A stretch of DNA of 64,000 bases, taken from the IMG/VR virus record IMGVR_UViG_3300044624_001039, positions 1 to 64,000 of that record. One strand, written 5' to 3'. Under the pieces are notes generated by a model. It had not been told where the DNA came from. It ran no database searches and saw only the letters and a program-made list of their open reading frames with translations. The position numbers and the translations under genes are program-made. Origin of the DNA: a virus. Of the stretch, positions 1,186 through 12,149 are shown one piece after another. Numbering within the stretch: position 1 is the stretch's first letter; every line of letters starts with the position of its first letter.

Positions 1186-1782
1186 TTAGGACATGTTGCG
1201 TTTTTGCAACACTTTGTCAGCTAGGCCATATGCTACAGCCTCACTTGCACTCATAAAAAAGTCACGCTCCATATCCTTAGCAAGTTCCTCAAAAGTTTTG
1301 CCAGCACTATTGTGGTCAACATAAATTTGTGTTAGAGATTTTTTCATAGCCAAAATCTCTTTAACTTGAATTTCCATATCAGTAGCTTGACCACGTGCGC
1401 CACCACTTGGTTGATGAATCATATGGCGTGCGTTAGGAAGAATCATTCGTTTATCTTTTGCACCTGCTTGACCAAGCAAACTACCCATTGAACAAGCTTG
1501 ACCCATGACGATTGTTTGAACGTCAGGTTTAACGAATTGCATACAATCATAGATTGCCATACCAGCTGTTACTGAGCCACCTGGACTGTTGATATAGATA
1601 CTGATATCTTTATCTGAATCTTCACTTTCCAAATATAGTAGTTGTGCAACGATTAGATTTGCCATCTGGTCATGTACCTCCCCTTCAAGCAAGATAACAC
1701 GGTCTTTTAATAGACGACTATAAATGTCATAACTACGTTCACCTTTACTTGTTTGTTCTAATACCATTGGGACTAAGCTCAT
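1186..1782 (-). CDS. clpP: ATP-dependent Clp protease proteolytic subunit ClpP
   Basis: Serine peptidase that forms the degradation chamber for Clp ATPases. At 198 aa it has normal ClpP length. The triad is visible: Ser98 in GQACSMGS, His123 in MIHQPSGG and Asp174 in MERDFF. The [14 protein letters not shown] substrate-binding region is also present. The nucleophile context is ACSMG rather than the usual AASMG. An AAGGAAAC ribosome binding site precedes the ATG. A phage clpX lies about 6 kb away on the same strand with an intact ClpP-docking loop, so a phage-encoded ClpXP is likely. The N-terminus looks mature, with no obvious long propeptide. Confidence 0.96.
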
Positions 1783-1806
1783 ATTGTTTCCTTCTTTAAA
1801 AATGTT

Positions 1807-1835
1807 TTGCGATAAATACTTAATGGTGCTATAAT
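1807..1835 (+). promoter_or_regulatory. Plus-strand promoter, with overlapping late-type motif
   Basis: TTGCGA (1807-1812), 17-base spacer, TATAAT (1830-1835). The same stretch contains GATAAATACTT (1811-1821), matching the T4-late-like motif seen elsewhere in the window. Either could drive the gene starting at 1868. Confidence 0.6.
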
Positions 1836-1867
1836 ACGCACTTCATTAACTCTTTGAGATATTATAC

Positions 1868-2944
1868 ATGAGATATACTGAATTTACAAGAACTTTGGTT
1901 GAAGCTGTTGACCAAATTAAAACTGTTACAAAACATGACGTGGAACAGACTTTGCGTAAAGCTGGGTATGAACAGTTCAAAATTAACGGTAACAAACTCA
2001 ATGTTTTGGTACAGATTCCAGATGGTGCAAAGAAAGCTGAATTCCGTAATGATATCTTACAAGAAATATTAGCTGTACTTAAAAAAGCATACAAGCATGA
2101 TGGGGTAGAGTATTCCAGTGATCCTGGAATCAGCAGTTTAGGCGGAGTAGTATTTGCCAATAGTCCAGTACAAGTTGTTGTAAAAGATAGCGGAAAACAA
2201 GGCGAAAAAAGTGCCGGTGTAGCAAATGAACTTGAATTAGCTAGCATTATTCAATCAGTAGTTGAAACATATGGCTCGGCCAATGTAACGTTTGTTGATC
2301 CGCGCGGTAAGAAGATGACCATTAAAAATGTAATAAATGTTGAAGTTGCAGGACGAGACACCGGTAACCGTAAGAAAGCAGATGTTGTATTACAAAGTCC
2401 TAAAGGGTTCTTACCAGTAAGTATTAAGAAATTAGATGCTGATATGTGGGAAAGTGCTGACAATTTGTTTGGTCAACGTGCTCGTGCTGTATTAGATAGT
2501 TTAGTAAAGAATGGTGATGTTAAACTTAACAAGATCGGTGAACGTAAATTAAAAACAGGTACAGTCCCTGTATACGAATTAAGCAAAGAAATTGTTATGG
2601 AACCTACTGAAGAAGAAGCATTAAATGCTATCTTTGGAAGTGATTTAAATCCTAAAGGTGGAATTGTTATTCAGACATTCAAGCCAGAACATTTTGTACA
2701 AGATGGTGCTACTGTAACAGTTGATGCACACGCTGTTATTACTAGTGCAGCCGACATACCGGAAAGTCATCTGATGGTATGGTTACTACGCAATGATAGT
2801 ACACGTAACGGTGGTAGTTTAGGTGTTGCAGGTATTCGTCCTTTAGGAGTTACATTAACTCGTGGTATAGGTAAAAAGGGTACGAAAGACGTTATATTAG
2901 TGGATCAACACGGTAACGTAGTTAAGAATCCAAATATCAAGTAA
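1868..2944 (+). CDS. Putative packaged nuclease-like protein with capsid-targeting N-terminus
   Basis: 358 aa. The N-terminus MRYTEFTRTLVEA has the form of a T4 capsid-targeting peptide, with a potential prohead-protease cut after LVE. Residues about 120-200 have a possible PD-(D/E)XK arrangement: an acidic helix (ELELASII), ADVVL, then PVSIKK. This nuclease reading is inference. The C-terminal third is beta-rich with no recognised domain. It is one of the few plus-strand genes and sits behind a GATAAATACTT late-type motif. Product: probably an internal head protein; catalytic role uncertain. Confidence 0.7.
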   Translation: MRYTEFTRTLVEAVDQIKTVTKHDVEQTLRKAGYEQFKINGNKLNVLVQIPDGAKKAEFRNDILQEILAVLKKAYKHDGVEYSSDPGISSLGGVVFANSPVQVVVKDSGKQGEKSAGVANELELASIIQSVVETYGSANVTFVDPRGKKMTIKNVINVEVAGRDTGNRKKADVVLQSPKGFLPVSIKKLDADMWESADNLFGQRARAVLDSLVKNGDVKLNKIGERKLKTGTVPVYELSKEIVMEPTEEEALNAIFGSDLNPKGGIVIQTFKPEHFVQDGATVTVDAHAVITSAADIPESHLMVWLLRNDSTRNGGSLGVAGIRPLGVTLTRGIGKKGTKDVILVDQHGNVVKNPNIK

Positions 2945-3436
2945 TCAACATTTAGCAAAAGTTTGATGCTTAAGCCATCTTTTTTGTCCATGGCCTACTT
3001 TTAATGATATCCCGTGTTTAGCTAATCTTTCTCTATGTGCATAGAAGCTAGGACCATGACTCATTATTCTATCCTTACCTTCACGTTCACGTTTGTCTCC
3101 GTCAATATCCCATTGATATTGATGCACCATTTCATGTGCTAGAGTAGTGATTAACCATTGCTTACAGAACCACTTGTCCATGAGACGGATTTTGCAATAT
3201 GTTTTACGATATTTAACTATATCATAACTAGCGTAGCACATTCCCCAGTATTTCCTACAGCGGGCTGTAACCTCAATTTCAGGCATGTTCAACTTATTGT
3301 TAAAGCATGCCTGATTGATTAGTTTATATAGTTCTATTACCTCAGCTTGATTTGTACGATAGCTTAGACGTTTTTGGTAACCGATACTTGGTAGCGGTTC
3401 ACGCATTAGTTTGGAAAGTTCGGATCTTTTAGTCAT
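2945..3436 (-). CDS. SprT-like zinc metallopeptidase
   Basis: 163 aa. HEMVHQYQW in the middle is the HExxH zinc/catalytic motif. The downstream SHGPSFYAHRERL matches the SprT pattern in which a later His completes the site. SprT-like (SPRTN-type) proteins include DNA-protein crosslink proteases. The gene converges on the preceding plus-strand gene, with adjacent stops. The upstream region has TTGTTA-N16-TACAAT. Confidence 0.85.
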   Translation of the reverse strand: MTKRSELSKLMREPLPSIGYQKRLSYRTNQAEVIELYKLINQACFNNKLNMPEIEVTARCRKYWGMCYASYDIVKYRKTYCKIRLMDKWFCKQWLITTLAHEMVHQYQWDIDGDKREREGKDRIMSHGPSFYAHRERLAKHGISLKVGHGQKRWLKHQTFAKC

Positions 3437-3445
3437 CTTGTATTT

Positions 3446-3473
3446 ATTGTAGCAAATTCATGTAATGTAACAA
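3446..3473 (-). promoter_or_regulatory. Probable promoter of the SprT-like gene
   Basis: TTGTTA (3468-3473), 16-base spacer, TACAAT (3446-3451) on the minus strand. The -10 overlaps AATAAATACAAG, a variant of the late-type motif, so timing cannot be decided by eye. Confidence 0.5.
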
Positions 3474-3535
3474 TATATTAGGAAAAATAACCTTTTTATT
3501 ATCCGTGATTAAATATATGTTTAGGAGAAAATTAA

Positions 3536-3862
3536 ATGGAAATTATTATAGTATTGGCAATTTTAGGTGTAGGTCTTTGGTGGTATTTCATCCGTGACCC
3601 AAAGAAATCGGAAGTTGCAGCACCTTATAAGGTAGAGACACCCCCATCTACTACGTATGAAGTACCGGAACCAGCCGCTACTACACCGATGCCATTGGTT
3701 GTAGAAGCACCAGCTGTGGCCCCTGTTAAAGCTCCAACTAAGCCAAAAGCGGCAGCTAAAACACCGGCTAAGCCAAAAGCGGCAGCTAAAACTCCAGCAA
3801 AAACACCAGCTAAAAAGGCACCTGCAAAAACAGCAAAGCCAAAAGTTACAGTAGCTAAGTAA
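3536..3862 (+). CDS. Membrane-anchored Pro/Ala/Lys-rich protein
   Basis: 108 aa. An N-terminal hydrophobic segment (about residues 2-19, MEIIIVLAILGVGLWWYF) is followed by a low-complexity tail with KPKAAAKTPA-type repeats, like histone H1 or TonB-type linkers. TTTAGGAG precedes the ATG. It is followed after 11 bases by the 230-aa plus-strand gene, so the two are probably co-transcribed. Repeats of the KPKAAAKT unit are nearly identical at DNA level, which favours length variation. It may be a spanin-like or nucleic-acid-binding membrane protein; neither can be shown. Confidence 0.75.
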   Translation: MEIIIVLAILGVGLWWYFIRDPKKSEVAAPYKVETPPSTTYEVPEPAATTPMPLVVEAPAVAPVKAPTKPKAAAKTPAKPKAAAKTPAKTPAKKAPAKTAKPKVTVAK

Positions 3863-3873
3863 CAACTTGATTA

Positions 3874-4566
3874 ATGAAAATAGGATTTGATGTAATCAGT
3901 GACTTGAATCTGGGCCCTAACGAACATTTTGATTGGGAGGGCAAGGCTACAAGTTTATATTGTGTTATAGCCGGTAACATCAGTAATGATTTACGTACTA
4001 TACATCAAATCCTATTACATTTATCACATTTTTATCAGGGAGTGTTTTATATTGCAGGCACACTTGAATATGAAGGTGTAGCTAATATAGCTACACGTAC
4101 CAATGAACTTTTTAATTTATGTAAAAGTATACGCAACGTAGCATATTTACATAATCATGTAGTAATATTAGATGGTATTGCTATTATAGGAACAAATGGA
4201 TGGTTCCATAATACTTTTCCATATCCGTTATTAAACCCTGAAGATATAGAGAATGAACGATATGATGATCTTGGTTATTTAGGCAACACAATAGAAAAAT
4301 TACAATTACATTTAGATGTAAAGCAAATTTTAATAGTTAGCCATTCTGCTCCCGGACATGAACTATTATTTGGTGAAGAGCCGGATGATATATATTCTAT
4401 ACCTCCGCTAAAATTAGCACTAATAAAAGATTCTGAATGTAAAGTCACACATTGGGTTTATGGTGATTACGATAAAACTGTTGATATTGTAATTCAAGGA
4501 ATTAATTACGTAAACAACAGTTTTTATAAAAGAAACCCTTATTGGGCTAAGAGAGTAGAAATTTAA
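3874..4566 (+). CDS. Degenerate calcineurin-like phosphoesterase
   Basis: 230 aa with the order of a metallophosphoesterase, but most metal ligands are replaced. SDLN stands for SDLH, AGN for AGD, AGTLEYE for GNHEYE and VYGDYD for a GHxH-type motif. SHSAPG retains its His. The intact enzymes use these residues to bind two metals, so this copy is probably non-catalytic and may serve as a structural or binding protein. It overlaps the stop of the convergent clpS by 4 bases. Confidence 0.7.
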   Translation: MKIGFDVISDLNLGPNEHFDWEGKATSLYCVIAGNISNDLRTIHQILLHLSHFYQGVFYIAGTLEYEGVANIATRTNELFNLCKSIRNVAYLHNHVVILDGIAIIGTNGWFHNTFPYPLLNPEDIENERYDDLGYLGNTIEKLQLHLDVKQILIVSHSAPGHELLFGEEPDDIYSIPPLKLALIKDSECKVTHWVYGDYDKTVDIVIQGINYVNNSFYKRNPYWAKRVEI

Positions 4567-4871
4567 GCAGTTTCGGATTCTACTTTAACTTGTAGAGGAA
4601 ATCCTTGACTACGTGCTGAAACAGTAACCTCAATTCCCTTTTGTTCTGCAATTTCATAGGGCAATACAGCGACAACTGCACTACCTTGACTGTGAATATT
4701 TTCGGTAATATGGGCGGCCGTGTCATCAGTATAATTAAAATATTCAATTAAACTTCCTACTACAAATTCCATACTTGTTACTTCATCATTTAAATAAATG
4801 ATTTTAAATAAAGGAGGTTCTGTTAAACTCAAGTTAGGTTTGATTGTAGTTTTTATTTCTGTTTTAGACAT
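4563..4871 (-). CDS. clpS: Clp adaptor ClpS
   Basis: 102 aa, normal ClpS length. The core PPLFKIIYLNDEVTSMEFVV matches the family, including the N-degron pocket region (LNDE...MEFVV). The HITENIHSQGSAVVAVLPYEIAE region continues the family fold. ClpS recognises N-end-rule substrates and delivers them to ClpA(P). The window encodes ClpX and ClpP but no ClpA, so the adaptor would act on host ClpA or ClpC. It sits downstream of hsp20 and dnaK in a stress-protein block. Confidence 0.9.
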   Translation of the reverse strand: MSKTEIKTTIKPNLSLTEPPLFKIIYLNDEVTSMEFVVGSLIEYFNYTDDTAAHITENIHSQGSAVVAVLPYEIAEQKGIEVTVSARSQGFPLQVKVESETA

Positions 4872-4888
4872 AGTTTTAAGTTAGTTAT

Positions 4889-4910
4889 GTGTGCGAGTTA
4901 CCCCGCACAC
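4889..4910. other. GC-rich hairpin between hsp20 and clpS
   Basis: Perfect 7-bp inverted repeat GTGTGCG/CGCACAC with an 8-base loop. No T-run follows on the minus strand, so it is not a classic terminator. It may be an mRNA processing or stability element between two stress genes. Confidence 0.6.
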
Positions 4911-4933
4911 TTATTTAGTGAAAGTTAATTATA

Positions 4934-5383
4934 TTATTTAGTATAAGTAATTGCAATAGATTTCGGTTTCTTTTCTTCTGGAATTTTTCGTTCCAAATAA
5001 ACAGAAAGAATTCCGTTCTTTACTTCAGCATGTATTACTTCAACATGTTCGGCTAATGGGAATGTTTGTGTGAAATCCCTATTGCTTAATCCTCTATGTA
5101 AATATTCATAGTTAAGCATTTCTTCACGTGCTTTAGATCCAGATATAATTAAAGCATTGTTATCTAATTTAATATCTAAATCACTTTCTCCAAAACCGGC
5201 TACTGCAACTTCAATAGTGACAGTCTCTTCACCTGTTTTAATAACATTATGAGGTGGATAATTGGAATTAGTTTGACCGGCTGTTAGACGCATTAATTCA
5301 TCTAACATAGAATCAAAGCCGATTCCGAATTTGTGAATTGATGGGATATCAATAGCACGAAGGGTTAATGTTTTTGTTGTCAT
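4934..5383 (-). CDS. Small heat-shock protein Hsp20 (IbpA-like)
   Basis: 149 aa from the ATG of MTTKTLTLRAID; AGGAG lies 8 bases upstream, so I prefer this start to an upstream ATG. The alpha-crystallin domain is clear: NYPPHNV, VTIEVAVAGF, then GILSVYLERKIPEEKKPK with an IxI-like SIAI tail. IbpA-type proteins hold unfolded proteins for DnaK. It lies directly downstream of dnaK, separated by a strong hairpin, and probably shares its transcript. Confidence 0.92.
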   Translation of the reverse strand: MTTKTLTLRAIDIPSIHKFGIGFDSMLDELMRLTAGQTNSNYPPHNVIKTGEETVTIEVAVAGFGESDLDIKLDNNALIISGSKAREEMLNYEYLHRGLSNRDFTQTFPLAEHVEVIHAEVKNGILSVYLERKIPEEKKPKSIAITYTK

Positions 5384-5416
5384 GTTTTTTCTCCTAATAA
5401 GCAAGTTTATGACGAT

Positions 5417-5444
5417 ATCGGGCCCGCCGAATGCGGCACCCGAT
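5417..5444. other. Strong hairpin between dnaK and hsp20
   Basis: ATCGGG/CCCGAT outer stem with inner CCGC/GCGG and a short loop; TTTTATTT follows on the plus strand. The T-run is on the wrong strand to terminate dnaK. It could be an RNA processing site, or a structure near the hsp20 leader that tunes expression. Confidence 0.6.
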
Positions 5445-5454
5445 TTTATTTAGA

Positions 5455-7350
5455 TTAAGATGCTTCCTTAACCTCTGCATCAACTACATTGTCATCAGAC
5501 TTTTGTGATTGAGATGCCTCTTTAGCTTTTTGTTCCTCTTCATATTTAACTTTAGTAATAGGACCAATAGCTTCATACAGTTCTTTAACTTTGTTTTCAA
5601 TAGATTCAACATCGGTATCAGCTAATGCAACTTCTAATGCATCAATAGCATTAGATGCTTTTTCTTTTTCTTCTGTTGTTACTTTGTCACCGTATTTTTC
5701 ATAATCTTTACGGAAACTATTTAAGGTTGATTCACCGCTGTTTTTTGCTTGAATCAATTTAACTTGTTTAGCATCAGATTCGGCGTTAGCCTCAGCTTCG
5801 TCAACCATCTGTTGAATTTCACGTTCAGTTAGTCCTGAATCAGATTTAATAGTAATCTTATTTTCTTTACCTGTGCCTTTATCCTTAGCACTTACATTAA
5901 GAATACCATTAGCATCAACATCTAATGTAACTTCAATTTGGGGAACACCACGCATTGCTGGAGGAATTCCTTCTAAATTAAACTCACCTAATAACTTGTT
6001 ATATGTAAACAAATCACGTTCACCCTGTGCAACTTTAATAGTTACTGCAGGTTGATTATCATCTGCGGTTGAAAACACTTGTGAATGTTTAGTAGGAATA
6101 GTTGTATTTTTCTTAATAAGTTTAGTAAATACGCCACCCGCTGTTTCAATACCCAAACTTAGTGGGGTTACATCAAGTAACAATACATCTGTACGTTCAC
6201 CGGCTAATACACTACCTTGAAGTGCCGCGCCGGCTGCTACTGCCTCATCCGGATTAACATCTTTGCGAGGTGTTTTACCAAACAATTTTTCAACTGTTTC
6301 TTGTACTTTGGGCATACGTGTCATTCCACCAACAAGAATTACCTCATCAATATCTGATATTGACACACCAGCATCTTGTATAGCTTGTTGACATGGTTTG
6401 ATACTACGTTGAATTAATTCATCAACTAACAACTCTAACTTAGCACGACTTAATTTAACATTTAAATGTTTAGGTCCACTAGCATCGGCTGTGATATATG
6501 GCAAGTTAACATCTGTTTGAGCACTACTACTCAGCTCAATTTTTGCTTTCTCGGCCGCGTCTTTCATTCGTTGCAATGCCAATACATCTTTAGTTAAGTC
6601 AATGCCATTGTCTTTCTTAAACTCATCAACTAAGAAGTCCATGATACGTTGGTCAAAGTCTTCACCACCTAAGAATGTATCACCATTGGTTGATAATACT
6701 TCAATTTGTTTCTCTCCGTCAACGTTGGCAATTTCAATAATACTTACATCAAATGTACCACCACCCAAATCATAAACAGCAATCTTGCGATCTTTCTTAT
6801 CTTGTTTATCTACACCATATGCTAATGCGGCTGCTGTAGGTTCGTTGATAATACGTAGTACTTCTAATCCTGCAATACGTCCGGCATCTTTAGTAGCTTG
6901 ACGTTGACTATCATTGAAGTAAGCCGGTACTGTGATAACTGCTTTAGTTACCTCTGTGCCCAAATAATCTTCAGCAGTCTTTTTCATCTTACGTAAGACT
7001 TCAGCACTGATTTGAGGTGGTGCTAATTTTTGTCCATTAGATTCAACCCATGCATCACCGTTGTCTGCTTTAACAATTTTGTATGGCATCAAGTCAATAT
7101 CTTTTTGTACAGCTTGTTCAGTGAACTTGCGTCCAATTAATCGCTTGGCAGCATAGATTGTATTTTTTGGATTAGTAACTGATTGTCGCTTGGCACTAGC
7201 ACCTACTAATATCTCATCGTTAGAATAGGCAACGATTGAGGGTGTAGTTCTTGCACCTTCTGAATTTTCAATTATTTTGGGGATTCCGTTTTCAATAACG
7301 GCTACACATGAATTTGTGGTACCTAGATCGATACCGATTACTTTGCTCAT
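5455..7350 (-). CDS. dnaK: Chaperone DnaK (Hsp70)
   Basis: 631 aa, essentially full length. The ATPase domain starts [14 protein letters not shown], with [10 protein letters not shown] and VGGMTRMP phosphate and adenosine motifs. The linker [15 protein letters not shown] leads into the substrate-binding domain and a lid ending in a charged tail ([10 protein letters not shown]). By eye it resembles proteobacterial DnaK throughout. No dnaJ or grpE is visible here, so host co-chaperones would be needed. Its AAAGGAG site is good, and a late-type ATAAATACTT motif lies about 60 bases upstream. Confidence 0.98.
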
Positions 7351-7409
7351 TGTTTTCTCCTTTATAAAGCAAGATTTTTATTTGTAGACCCTATAATAGG
7401 CATCTAGAA

Positions 7410-7419
7410 AAGTATTTAT
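7410..7419 (-). promoter_or_regulatory. Late-type promoter motif before dnaK
   Basis: ATAAATACTT on the minus strand, about 60 bases from the dnaK ATG. It fits the GATAAATACTT motif found before other genes and resembles T4 late promoters (TATAAATA). Confidence 0.5.
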
Positions 7420-7459
7420 TATAATTATTTACGTAAAAAATAATATTATTTAGGATAAA

Positions 7460-7678
7460 TTAATACAACTTTTTAGGAAGACTTTGGTCACGTAAAAACT
7501 TATCCCAACGTCTTTTAGCCTGACTTTTAGCTAGTTTACGTTTAACGGTAGGTTTTACAAATTCTTGACGGTCACGTACTTCTTGTAAAGTTCCGTAGTC
7601 TGTCATCAACTTTTTGAATTTTCGTAATGCTTTGTCAGTATTACCATCGTTAACTAAAACTTTTCTTCCTCTAATCAT
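7460..7678 (-). CDS. rpsU: Ribosomal protein bS21
   Basis: 72 aa, basic, with the S21 signature: alternating Arg/Lys, ALRKFKKLMTDYGTL, EVRDRQEFVKPTVKRK and KRRWDKFLRD. bS21 sits at the 30S platform near the anti-Shine-Dalgarno and affects initiation. Phage copies are known in large phages and pelagiphages. ATGA coupling with clpX upstream implies co-expression. Confidence 0.93.
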   Translation of the reverse strand: MIRGRKVLVNDGNTDKALRKFKKLMTDYGTLQEVRDRQEFVKPTVKRKLAKSQAKRRWDKFLRDQSLPKKLY

Positions 7679-8880
7679 ATTGCGGCTTTTGGTTGTAAAA
7701 TTTGCTCCTGATTAATATTTATCTTTCTAATGTTATTTTCACGGTATTTCTTTGTGTTATACATATGAGGCATCAAAACCTTCTCAATCTCTGTATGTAA
7801 TCCACGTGCACCAGTCTTTAATTTCATAGTGTTTTCGGCTAATTGTGAAATAGCATCTTCACTAAAATCCAACTCAATGTCATCTAAACTAAGCAAATAC
7901 TTATATTGGTCAATATAGTTATTTTTTACTTCAGTTAATACCTTAATCATTTCCTCTTTAGTTAGATTCTCTACGTTAACTGTAGTAGTAAATCGTCCAA
8001 TAAACTCAGGAATCATACCAAATCGTGTTAAATCATCAGGGGTAACCATAGACAAATCACCCTCTGTACGAACATCTTTAATATCTGCCCCAAAGCCAAT
8101 ACTAGTACCATTAACTCTATTGTTAACAATATCTTTTAATCCTACAAAAGCACCACCGGCAATGAATAAAATATTCTTAGTATTAATTTCCATCATATCA
8201 CCACCGGGATGTTTACGTCCGCCACCGGCTGGTATACGACATGTAGTACCTTCAACCATTTTCAATAATGCTTGTTGAACACCCTCTCCTGATACATCAC
8301 GGGTAATACTACTGCCTTCGCTTTTACGGGCAATTTTGTCAATCTCATCAACAAATACAATACCACGTTCTGCTAGTTTAATATCACCACCGGCAGCATT
8401 TAATAACATTGTAATCATGGATTCAACATCATCACCTACATACCCTGCTTCCGTTAAACTTGTAGCATCAGCAACAATAAAGGGCACTTCTAAATATTTT
8501 GCTACAGTCTTTGCTAGTAATGTTTTGCCAGATCCAGTAGGACCAACTAATAAAACATTACCCTTTTGTATCTCTAAATCTTTGGGAGGATTGTTAATAC
8601 GTTTATAATGATTAGCAATAGCTACACTAAGAACCATCTTAGCATTGTTTTGTCCAATAATATGTTGGTCTAGAAATTCCTTAATGGTTTCAGGATCAAA
8701 TCTAATATTAACTTTTTCAATCTTTTCTTCTTCAGGGTTTTTATCATCATGCATTAATTGAGTACATAACTCAATGCAATCACTACAGATGGCTACATCT
8801 TCCCCCACAATGAGTTTGTTTACTACGTCTTTATGATTACCGCAGAATGAACAATGGCTTAATTTTATTTCTGTTGACAT
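7675..8880 (-). CDS. clpX: Clp protease ATP-binding subunit ClpX
   Basis: 401 aa. N-terminal zinc-binding domain with C10/C13/C32/C35. Walker A is GPTGSGKT (about 113-120), Walker B is VFVDEID, pore loop 1 is GYVGDD, and the RKH loop GGRKHPGG is present. The ClpP-docking tripeptide IGF occurs in TSIGFGADI. All functional elements appear intact, so this should unfold substrates and dock with phage or host ClpP. It is coupled to bS21 downstream. Confidence 0.97.
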   Translation of the reverse strand: MSTEIKLSHCSFCGNHKDVVNKLIVGEDVAICSDCIELCTQLMHDDKNPEEEKIEKVNIRFDPETIKEFLDQHIIGQNNAKMVLSVAIANHYKRINNPPKDLEIQKGNVLLVGPTGSGKTLLAKTVAKYLEVPFIVADATSLTEAGYVGDDVESMITMLLNAAGGDIKLAERGIVFVDEIDKIARKSEGSSITRDVSGEGVQQALLKMVEGTTCRIPAGGGRKHPGGDMMEINTKNILFIAGGAFVGLKDIVNNRVNGTSIGFGADIKDVRTEGDLSMVTPDDLTRFGMIPEFIGRFTTTVNVENLTKEEMIKVLTEVKNNYIDQYKYLLSLDDIELDFSEDAISQLAENTMKLKTGARGLHTEIEKVLMPHMYNTKKYRENNIRKININQEQILQPKAAI

Positions 8881-10598: not shown

Positions 10599-12149
10599 TT
10601 ATTTTTGGTTCTTTAGGTAAATTTCAATCTGTTCTCTTTCGTGATCCGACAACAAATCAAGGTCATATTCGCCCTTTTCTATCTTTTCAACCAAATATTT
10701 GATATATTTTTGGTTATATAAATAGGTATCTGATTGGCCCTTCTGAACCTCAATCCATTTATTTCCGTCATACTTATATACACGATTTGGTAATGCATCT
10801 ACTCGTACAAACAAATCACCCTTATTAGCTTCATTTGGAAACTTAATACCAAAGTTAGTGCTGATAGAACGTTGACTATCTGGTTTTAGCACGAATATAT
10901 CTGGACGTAAACTCTTTAGTGCATCTAATTGGTAATGCCTATCTTCAAATATTACATATCCACCTTCTAATTCCTTATAAGGTTTTTGTTGTTCCAATAC
11001 TATTTGTTCTGCTGTATCTTCTTCAACTTCTTTTGGTGCAACCATTGGTTTAGTATCAAAATGAACAAAAGGTTTAGTTAAGTATGGATGTTGTTCCAGT
11101 ATAGACTTTTCGGGTTCGGGTTTGGTAAATTCCCAATCAACATTGTCTATATTATCCTTCACATCACAATTTTTATTAGGACAGAAAGGACCTATTCCGG
11201 GTGCATCAATTAACTCAGTGCCACACATGTAACAATTAATAGGTTCTTTAGGAGATCCCGCCATTGCAATAATCTGTTTAACTTGTTCATCAGTCAACGG
11301 ACCATCATCTGGCTCATATGCAGGTTCTGTGACAGTGGGAGTCGTTGTTGGTTCAGTCCCTAGAGGGCTGTCACCCTCCTCTTTATCCCATTCTTTACTT
11401 GCGTTGGCGGCAAGTACAAGTGCAATAGCTAATGGGTCAAACACAATAACCAATAAGATAATAACCCAACGAACAGCAGATTCAAGCGTATTGTTATCAG
11501 CATCATCACCGTATATTAATGCGGCAATATATTTGATGGGACCTACCTCAGCTTCTATCTTACGATTTTCAGCCGCAATAGGTGCTCGTTCTTCATTTAG
11601 TTTAGCAATTTCTTTTTGTGCGTCACCAATATCTTTTTGTATTTTAGCACGTTCACCTGCTTGTTGTCTACGAATTTGAACAGCACGTTCAGCACTATTT
11701 TCACTATCACCGCGACTTAATCGTTGGTCAACTTGATTGTCCATTTGAGTTAATGCTTTTCGTGCTAACTCAATGTTATCTCTTTGTGTTTTTATCTTCT
11801 CGTCATACAATGCTAATTTAGCTTGACTATCACCTGAGGTAATACCTTGATCCATATGTGCTTTACTTAAAAAGCCAAAGATACCCATACTGGTTAATAA
11901 TGCTAGTGCAACAACAGCAGGTACTAGATATAATTTTAATAACCAACTAGTACGATACCAATATTTGCGTAGCCAAACAGTTGCGGTAATCTTTCCTACT
12001 TCTAGAATACCTCCCATAATAATAACAGGAATAACCGCACCTGCAAAGATAGCGGTTAACCCGATAATACTATACCAGGCTGCTACCGAACTAAGCGATA
12101 GTGCCACTAATAGTGTGAGATTTGAGAATGATAAAAATTTAAGGCGCAT
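10599..12149 (-). CDS. Membrane protein with coiled coil and zinc-binding tail
   Basis: 516 aa. Three hydrophobic segments lie in the first ~110 residues, then a long charged coiled coil (about 110-205, IKTQRDNIELARKAL...), then a further membrane segment (VRWVIILLVIVFDPLAIALVL, about 225-245). A cytoplasmic-type tail carries a four-Cys cluster (CYMCGTE ... CPNKNC). The tail also has a region for binding or wrapping (ISTNFGIKFP...). Function unknown; the architecture suggests a membrane scaffold in the infected cell. Confidence 0.75.
   Translation of the reverse strand: MRLKFLSFSNLTLLVALSLSSVAAWYSIIGLTAIFAGAVIPVIIMGGILEVGKITATVWLRKYWYRTSWLLKLYLVPAVVALALLTSMGIFGFLSKAHMDQGITSGDSQAKLALYDEKIKTQRDNIELARKALTQMDNQVDQRLSRGDSENSAERAVQIRRQQAGERAKIQKDIGDAQKEIAKLNEERAPIAAENRKIEAEVGPIKYIAALIYGDDADNNTLESAVRWVIILLVIVFDPLAIALVLAANASKEWDKEEGDSPLGTEPTTTPTVTEPAYEPDDGPLTDEQVKQIIAMAGSPKEPINCYMCGTELIDAPGIGPFCPNKNCDVKDNIDNVDWEFTKPEPEKSILEQHPYLTKPFVHFDTKPMVAPKEVEEDTAEQIVLEQQKPYKELEGGYVIFEDRHYQLDALKSLRPDIFVLKPDSQRSISTNFGIKFPNEANKGDLFVRVDALPNRVYKYDGNKWIEVQKGQSDTYLYNQKYIKYLVEKIEKGEYDLDLLSDHEREQIEIYLKNQK

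Follow-up and report, generated by a model that had tools for sequence, protein, structure and literature searches.

The active site of calcineurin-like metallophosphoesterases (MPEs) comprises eight canonical residues spread over the motifs D-x-H, GD, GNH, H and GHxH. Departures from this pattern occur in nature: MPPED2 is an MPE with one metal ligand position changed, and the B subunits of eukaryotic DNA polymerases, which are multi-domain subunits of the replisome, carry an inactive MPE fold with a protein-protein role. MPE-fold pseudoenzymes are already known as a kind, VPS29 being an example. VPS29 of retromer uses the MPE fold as a rigid scaffold and has Asn39 at the bridging metal position; in vitro it retains metal binding, with Asp, Asn and His as ligands (PMC3101248). 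On the phage side, genes for Hsp20 and Clp proteins are reported in the vicinity of bS21 (PMC9723584), and jumbo phages are reported to encode ClpS, SprT and calcineurin-like proteins (PMC7824862). Within the open-licence PMC literature we found no fitting description of a phage pseudo-phosphoesterase, nor of a proteostasis cassette with such a gene.

Here we examine a gene of a large phage, in a window of 64,000 nucleotides of viral DNA (positions 1 to 64,000 of IMG/VR record IMGVR_UViG_3300044624_001039), whose product we call pseudo-MPE. The solved structure closest to its model is PptH from Mycobacterium tuberculosis (6unc; 15% identity), which the PDB title identifies as a hydrolase. MPPED2 (3rl3, 3rl4) is also a fold match (Z 17.3-17.4), with one altered ligand position against six active-site positions in pseudo-MPE. 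The Pol epsilon B subunit (5vbn) is a weak Foldseek match (E 6.6e-4), a likeness in fold. VPS29 shares with pseudo-MPE an Asn at the bridging position (N35, 84/84 here), but it is eukaryotic and less eroded; the parallel is drawn as an analogy only. Most pseudoenzymes come to notice as ancient end points. In this case the slot beside ClpS is occupied by an intact form in one of two sister phage groups and by a dead form in the other, the loss coinciding with a new neighbouring gene, and the stages on either side of a conversion from enzyme to binder can be compared directly.

Results

A divergent phage protein with a predicted MPE fold

Homology to the calcineurin-like MPE superfamily is found at the sequence level. 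The product matches PHROG_1649, 'metallo-phosphoesterase' (E 1.6e-5), and profile-profile comparison by hhalign aligns the pseudo family with the intact MPE of Sinorhizobium phage Phosso (E 6e-15). Pfam, including PF00149, returned zero matches for the protein even at E 10, and was likewise blind to pseudo-MPE in the family members tested. Only three of 50,697 phage records matched the window protein, every match being weak, and all three are jumbo-phage MPEs. Searches of PDB sequences with phmmer and profiles gave nothing relevant; a hit to LuxQ (E 0.06) was put down to chance. In genome contigs, none of 11 matches to two sequence patterns was a cellular relative.

Viral relatives, on the other hand, are plentiful: one scan yielded 231, and about 200 viral contigs carry the protein, many records in the scans being near-duplicates. 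The alignment scans used the best 80 of 197, the best 80 of 231 and the best 80 of 204 loci, and the resulting count of 84 distinct members leaves out L016-L018, L085-L108 and the truncated L011. The patterns of these scans held D10 (IGFDxISD) and W21-K24, so that invariance there is partly built in; N35, L64 and positions 157, 198 and 200 were in none of them. One separate search used HWVYGDYD as one of six patterns.

Structure prediction had been proposed as a check on the original prediction. A model built from a 52-sequence alignment reached a pLDDT of 92.0 and a pTM of 0.90, and replaced an earlier AF2 model from nine sequences (pLDDT 58.7, poor), whose Foldseek list was set aside. Foldseek put MPEs at the head of its list (PptH at E 1.4e-8), with 42 PDB matches at E <= 0.001, and, among viral structures, found MPEs down to E 2.4e-13. 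The best solved match by VIA-align was PptH (Z 22.0, rmsd 3.1 over 223 residues), followed by TT1561 (Z 18.2). Because of these Foldseek matches and the extent of the PptH alignment, the product is modelled as a complete calcineurin-like MPE fold along the full chain. A 'phosphoesterase' label based on this fold would mislead.

Table 1 Features of the pseudo-MPE locus (window coordinates; residue counts over 84 distinct pseudo-MPEs).
Feature	Position	Strand	Remarks
Pseudo-metallophosphoesterase gene	3874..4566	+	230 aa; ATG start; without internal stop
Motif I, SDLN (residues 9-12)	3898..3909	+	D10 kept, His12 to Asn; D10 84/84, H12 9/84
WEGKATSL (residues 21-28)	3934..3957	+	WEGLGTSL in intact sisters, so ancestral; K24 specific to pseudo clade
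Motif II, AGN (residues 33-35)	3970..3978	+	bridging Asp to Asn35; N in 84/84 pseudo, D in 19/19 sisters
Motif III, AGTLEYE (residues 61-67)	4054..4074	+	Asn and catalytic His of GNHE to T63 and L64; E65 kept
Motif IV, SHSAP (residues 156-160)	4339..4353	+	His157 kept in window; H157 in 23/84
Motif V, VYGDYD (residues 195-200)	4456..4473	+	both His of GHxH replaced (D198, D200); H198 1/84, H200 3/84
ClpS	4563..4871	-	convergent with pseudo-MPE, 4-nt overlap at stop codons; PHROG ATP-dependent protease, E 1.4e-18
Upstream partner gene	3536..3862	+	108 aa; hydrophobic N-terminus; basic Ala/Lys/Pro-rich tail ending KPKVTVAK; 11 nt before pseudo-MPE start
Proteostasis cassette	1186-8880		ClpP-type protease, SprT-like, ClpS, Hsp20, DnaK (631 aa), bS21, ClpX
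PHROG_12709 gene	1868-2944	+	358 aa; function unknown in PHROGs; E 9.4e-36; KKADVVL...SIKK stretch nuclease-like by eye only
DUF4407-like gene	10599-12149	-	516 aa; weak match, below Pfam cut-off

Most of the metal site is lost across the family

Motif by motif, the window protein follows the MPE order, with SDLN, AGN, AGTLEYE, SHSAP and VYGDYD in succession. The eight canonical residues were checked against aligned intact relatives (the Phosso MPE and the nearest ones), which have SDLH, AGD, DGNHEH and FGHxH where the window protein has SDLN, AGN, AGTLEYE and VYGDYD. Two of the eight are kept, D10 and H157; the other six are replaced, with N12, N35, T63, L64, D198 and D200 standing for H, D, N, H, H and H. 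The original prediction had named these four segments as substitutes for the MPE ligands in a preserved fold order, and they are present as quoted, with the same pattern in 84/84 members. Its observation is confirmed; it had omitted the fourth motif, SHSAP, in which H157 is still present, and D10 is kept as well.

Among the 84 distinct pseudo-MPEs, 50 keep one canonical residue, 30 keep two and four keep three, and none exceeds three of eight. In motif III, N63 and H64 occur in one member each and E65 in all. The complete ligand set of an active MPE (D-x-H, GD, GNH, H, GHxH) is absent from the window protein. As read from the alignment, active-site loss is the state of the whole family, not of one protein, and metal loss is likely to have come with it. 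N35 alone is insufficient proof of this, since VPS29 with an Asn there can still bind metal; it is the combined ligand loss that makes it likely.

The eroded protein remains under strong selection

Pairwise NG86 comparison of the window gene gave dN/dS values of 0.10-0.19 against nine close relatives (dS 0.72-1.16) and 0.25-0.28 against three farther ones (dS about 1.4-1.5). Over 228 pairs the median was 0.19 and the maximum 0.37. Site rates, computed on a FastTree topology, place most former ligands in the middle to fast range (percentiles: N12 53, T63 72, L64 51, H157 57, D198 45, D200 92). The residues W21, K24, Y29, H146, D148, W194, K226 and R227 are invariant in the family, W21 and K24 being partly contained in the search patterns. 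By these codon and site-rate estimates pseudo-MPE is strongly constrained, and the constraint is evidently no longer that of the metal site.

An intact sister family occupies the same slot

The sister scan, with the MPE pair of Phosso and Atu_ph07 as query, returned 59 loci, from which 46 proteins were read out; its pattern included DGNHEH, so that invariance there is partly built in. Twenty of the 46 group with the pseudo family (FastTree support 1.0), and all five metal motifs are present in 19 of these 20. These intact sisters (L220-L253 type, about 258 aa; more distantly the Phosso MPE and PHROG_1649) are the closest relatives of pseudo-MPE in sequence, share WEGxxTSL with it, and sit in the same slot, convergent with ClpS and with Hsp20 downstream. 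They differ from it in being about 28 residues longer, in their PRGR loop and metal motifs, and in having no K/A/P-rich upstream gene. At the C-terminus pseudo-MPE has NNSFYKRNPYW where intact families have a PRGR/PRGY-type loop. Outside the pseudo clade, one sister (L233) has lost a single ligand: it has GHVR instead of GHxH, its motifs being otherwise intact.

The pseudo-family profile matched a protein in 16 of 17 sister records, with E-values of 1e-26 to 1e-34 in 14. ClpS is present in 14 of the 17, where it always lies downstream of the intact MPE in convergent orientation; it abuts the MPE in 11/14 and is separated from it by at least one small ORF in 3/14. In a 64-protein tree (LG+C20 by PMSF, quick search) the 35 pseudo rows split off with an SH-aLRT of 100, the 15 intact sisters having 57; in the FastTree tree the support for the pseudo clade was only 0.65. 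In the sisters, 33 sites that the pseudo clade has fixed are either different or variable; P222, W224 and R227 at the C-terminus are among them. WEGKATS, considered as a newly gained motif, was ruled out by WEGLGTSL in the intact sisters, leaving K24 and some other sites as clade-specific.

Because there is a single pseudo clade and intact sisters lie at the same ClpS slot, the simplest account would be that the active site was lost once, in place, in the ancestry of this clade and that the partner gene arrived along with this; alternatively, the partner gene may have been lost in the sister group instead. That this is a pseudoenzyme kept intact, as had been proposed from the window alone, is borne out by the full fold, the family-wide ligand loss, the purifying selection and the clade structure with intact sisters at one locus.

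A putative partner gene lies upstream in the pseudo clade

A partner ORF precedes pseudo-MPE at 81/81 loci with upstream sequence (three of 84 loci, at contig edges, were dropped), with a gap of at most 20 nt in 79/81. Its K+A+P fraction over the whole protein is 0.28-0.69 (median 0.48). The finder picks the most K/A/P-rich same-strand ORF of each locus and the partner is of low complexity, which favours the pairing result. The N-terminus is a hydrophobic segment at 48 loci, a short FLKxLF-type helix at 30 and neither at three; among relatives, it is transmembrane-like in some and a short amphipathic helix in others. An APYKV-type segment recurs, and a KPKxxVAK-like C-terminus is found in 42/81 by a strict pattern. 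Upstream of intact sister MPEs, a partner-like gene was found at 0/13 loci: same-strand ORFs there had K/A/P fractions of 0.11-0.23 or were missing, and an opposite-strand gene sits where the partner would be.

Downstream, the convergent ClpS gene is present for 83/83 relatives, 77-95 nt away in three and abutting in the rest. Across 61 pseudo-MPE loci the neighbours include convergent ClpS (60), Hsp20 (60), ClpX (58), ClpP (49), SprT-like (41) and bS21 (40). A full DnaK gene occurs at just 8/61 related loci, the other cassette genes in most. ClpS, Hsp20, bS21 and the ClpP-type protease were named by PHROGs, SprT-like and S21 by Pfam, and ClpX and DnaK by ORF appearance, DnaK also from phage-record annotation. 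Downstream of both pseudo and intact MPEs, DUF4407-like and bS21 genes are found repeatedly.

Discussion

Non-catalytic binding is the most natural and best supported reading of pseudo-MPE, as far as comparison of sequences can tell. Its more specific form, in which the protein is the catalytically inactive binding subunit of a module of two genes, the other encoding the upstream small protein, has in our judgement an even chance of being right. A phosphoesterase with an intact site beside ClpS would have been converted in place, once, coinciding with the presence of the partner gene, and the MPE-fold protein, presumably without catalysis, would serve as scaffold or adaptor. The partner would probably hold it at the inner membrane via its hydrophobic or amphipathic N-terminus and offer a basic Ala/Lys/Pro tail. 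A putative physical complex of the two is favoured on two grounds: the pseudo clade always shows the pairing and the intact clade never does, and the newly fixed sites include residues in the basic C-terminus. Against the module, operon pairing is equally expected from plain vertical inheritance.

The behaviour of the old pocket raises a different possibility. D10, N35 and E65, which lie at old pocket positions and are invariant in 84/84, are among the slowest sites (percentile 6 for D10 and 0 for N35), which hints that the pocket is still doing something and counts against a pure binding-subunit reading. The pocket (D10, N35, E65, S/T63) might bind a nucleotide or phosphate compound unhydrolysed and signal to the ClpS/ClpX/Hsp20 cassette, whose neighbourhood is so well conserved, or to a phage process. 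Such a ligand sensor is possible though unlikely: the PRGR/PRGY-type C-terminal loop is gone, the remaining pocket positions vary freely, and D10 and E65 could be structural. A more elaborate version of the binding reading is quite improbable, namely that a large phage lineage turned the enzyme, in place, into a membrane-tethered adaptor, a new module of the dead MPE with its basic, K/A/P-tailed membrane partner that would recruit substrates, ribosomes or nucleic acid to the phage ClpS-ClpX-ClpP/Hsp20/bS21 cassette.

Pseudo-MPE could also be the regulatory dead half of a pair, with a separate intact MPE encoded kilobases away, since PF00149 matches occur in 35/40 pseudo-MPE records (17/20 in a first set, 18/20 in a second). 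In the first set, 16/20 records have a separate MPE of about 270-300 aa on the opposite strand, 3.7-10.8 kb upstream; of the other four, contigs G009, G019 and G020 end within about 7.5 kb and G004 is without one. In the second set it lies within 10 kb in 11/20 and at 13-24 kb in seven, and two have none, one of them (G034) on a contig that ends about 4 kb upstream. The motifs read at 20 separate loci comprise 14 intact classical MPEs (about 260-300 aa) and six that we take to be LpxH-like. Because such matches occur in most records, the loss of the ClpS-slot enzyme would have left the phages with an MPE. A dead-half role is nevertheless doubtful: G004 and G024, each with 13 kb or more of sequence upstream, lack any match, in other records the two genes lie up to 24 kb apart, the separate MPE belongs to a different and more distant family, and plain inheritance could explain the linkage. 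Nor was the separate MPE retained as direct source of pseudo-MPE, the sister family at the ClpS slot being closer (E about 1e-30 for the sister family by profile search against 3e-10 for the separate MPE by hhalign, values from programs that are not strictly comparable). A sister-type copy was found in none of 20 pseudo-MPE records, where the other matches, a second pseudo copy in G011 excepted, were weak (E 1e-4 to 1e-7) and at the places of the separate MPEs. The 524,565-base IMG/VR record G011 (L038 and L134) has two pseudo-MPE copies and six PF00149 matches, and may represent two related phages whose genomes were merged during assembly.

Equally doubtful is a still active enzyme whose metal site has been rebuilt in non-canonical form from D10, N35, H157, D198 and D200. 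All five side chains are possible metal ligands at canonical sequence positions, and VPS29 binds metal with a bridging Asn (PMC3101248). Conservation, which bears directly on the alternative site that would have undone the original prediction, speaks against it: D198 occurs in 3/84, D200 in 21/84 and H157 in 23/84 members, and among the first-listed close relatives (72-85% identical) only L006 shares the D198/D200/H157 set. The catalytic His64 is missing in 83/84. A site based on D198 and D200 is, on these alignments, not family-wide, and the window protein alone may have a weak one.

A decaying relic enzyme without function is scarcely credible: ligand loss taken alone would fit, but the dN/dS of 0.10-0.19, the 83 distinct full-length, uninterrupted relatives and the invariant residues refute pseudogene decay of the gene.
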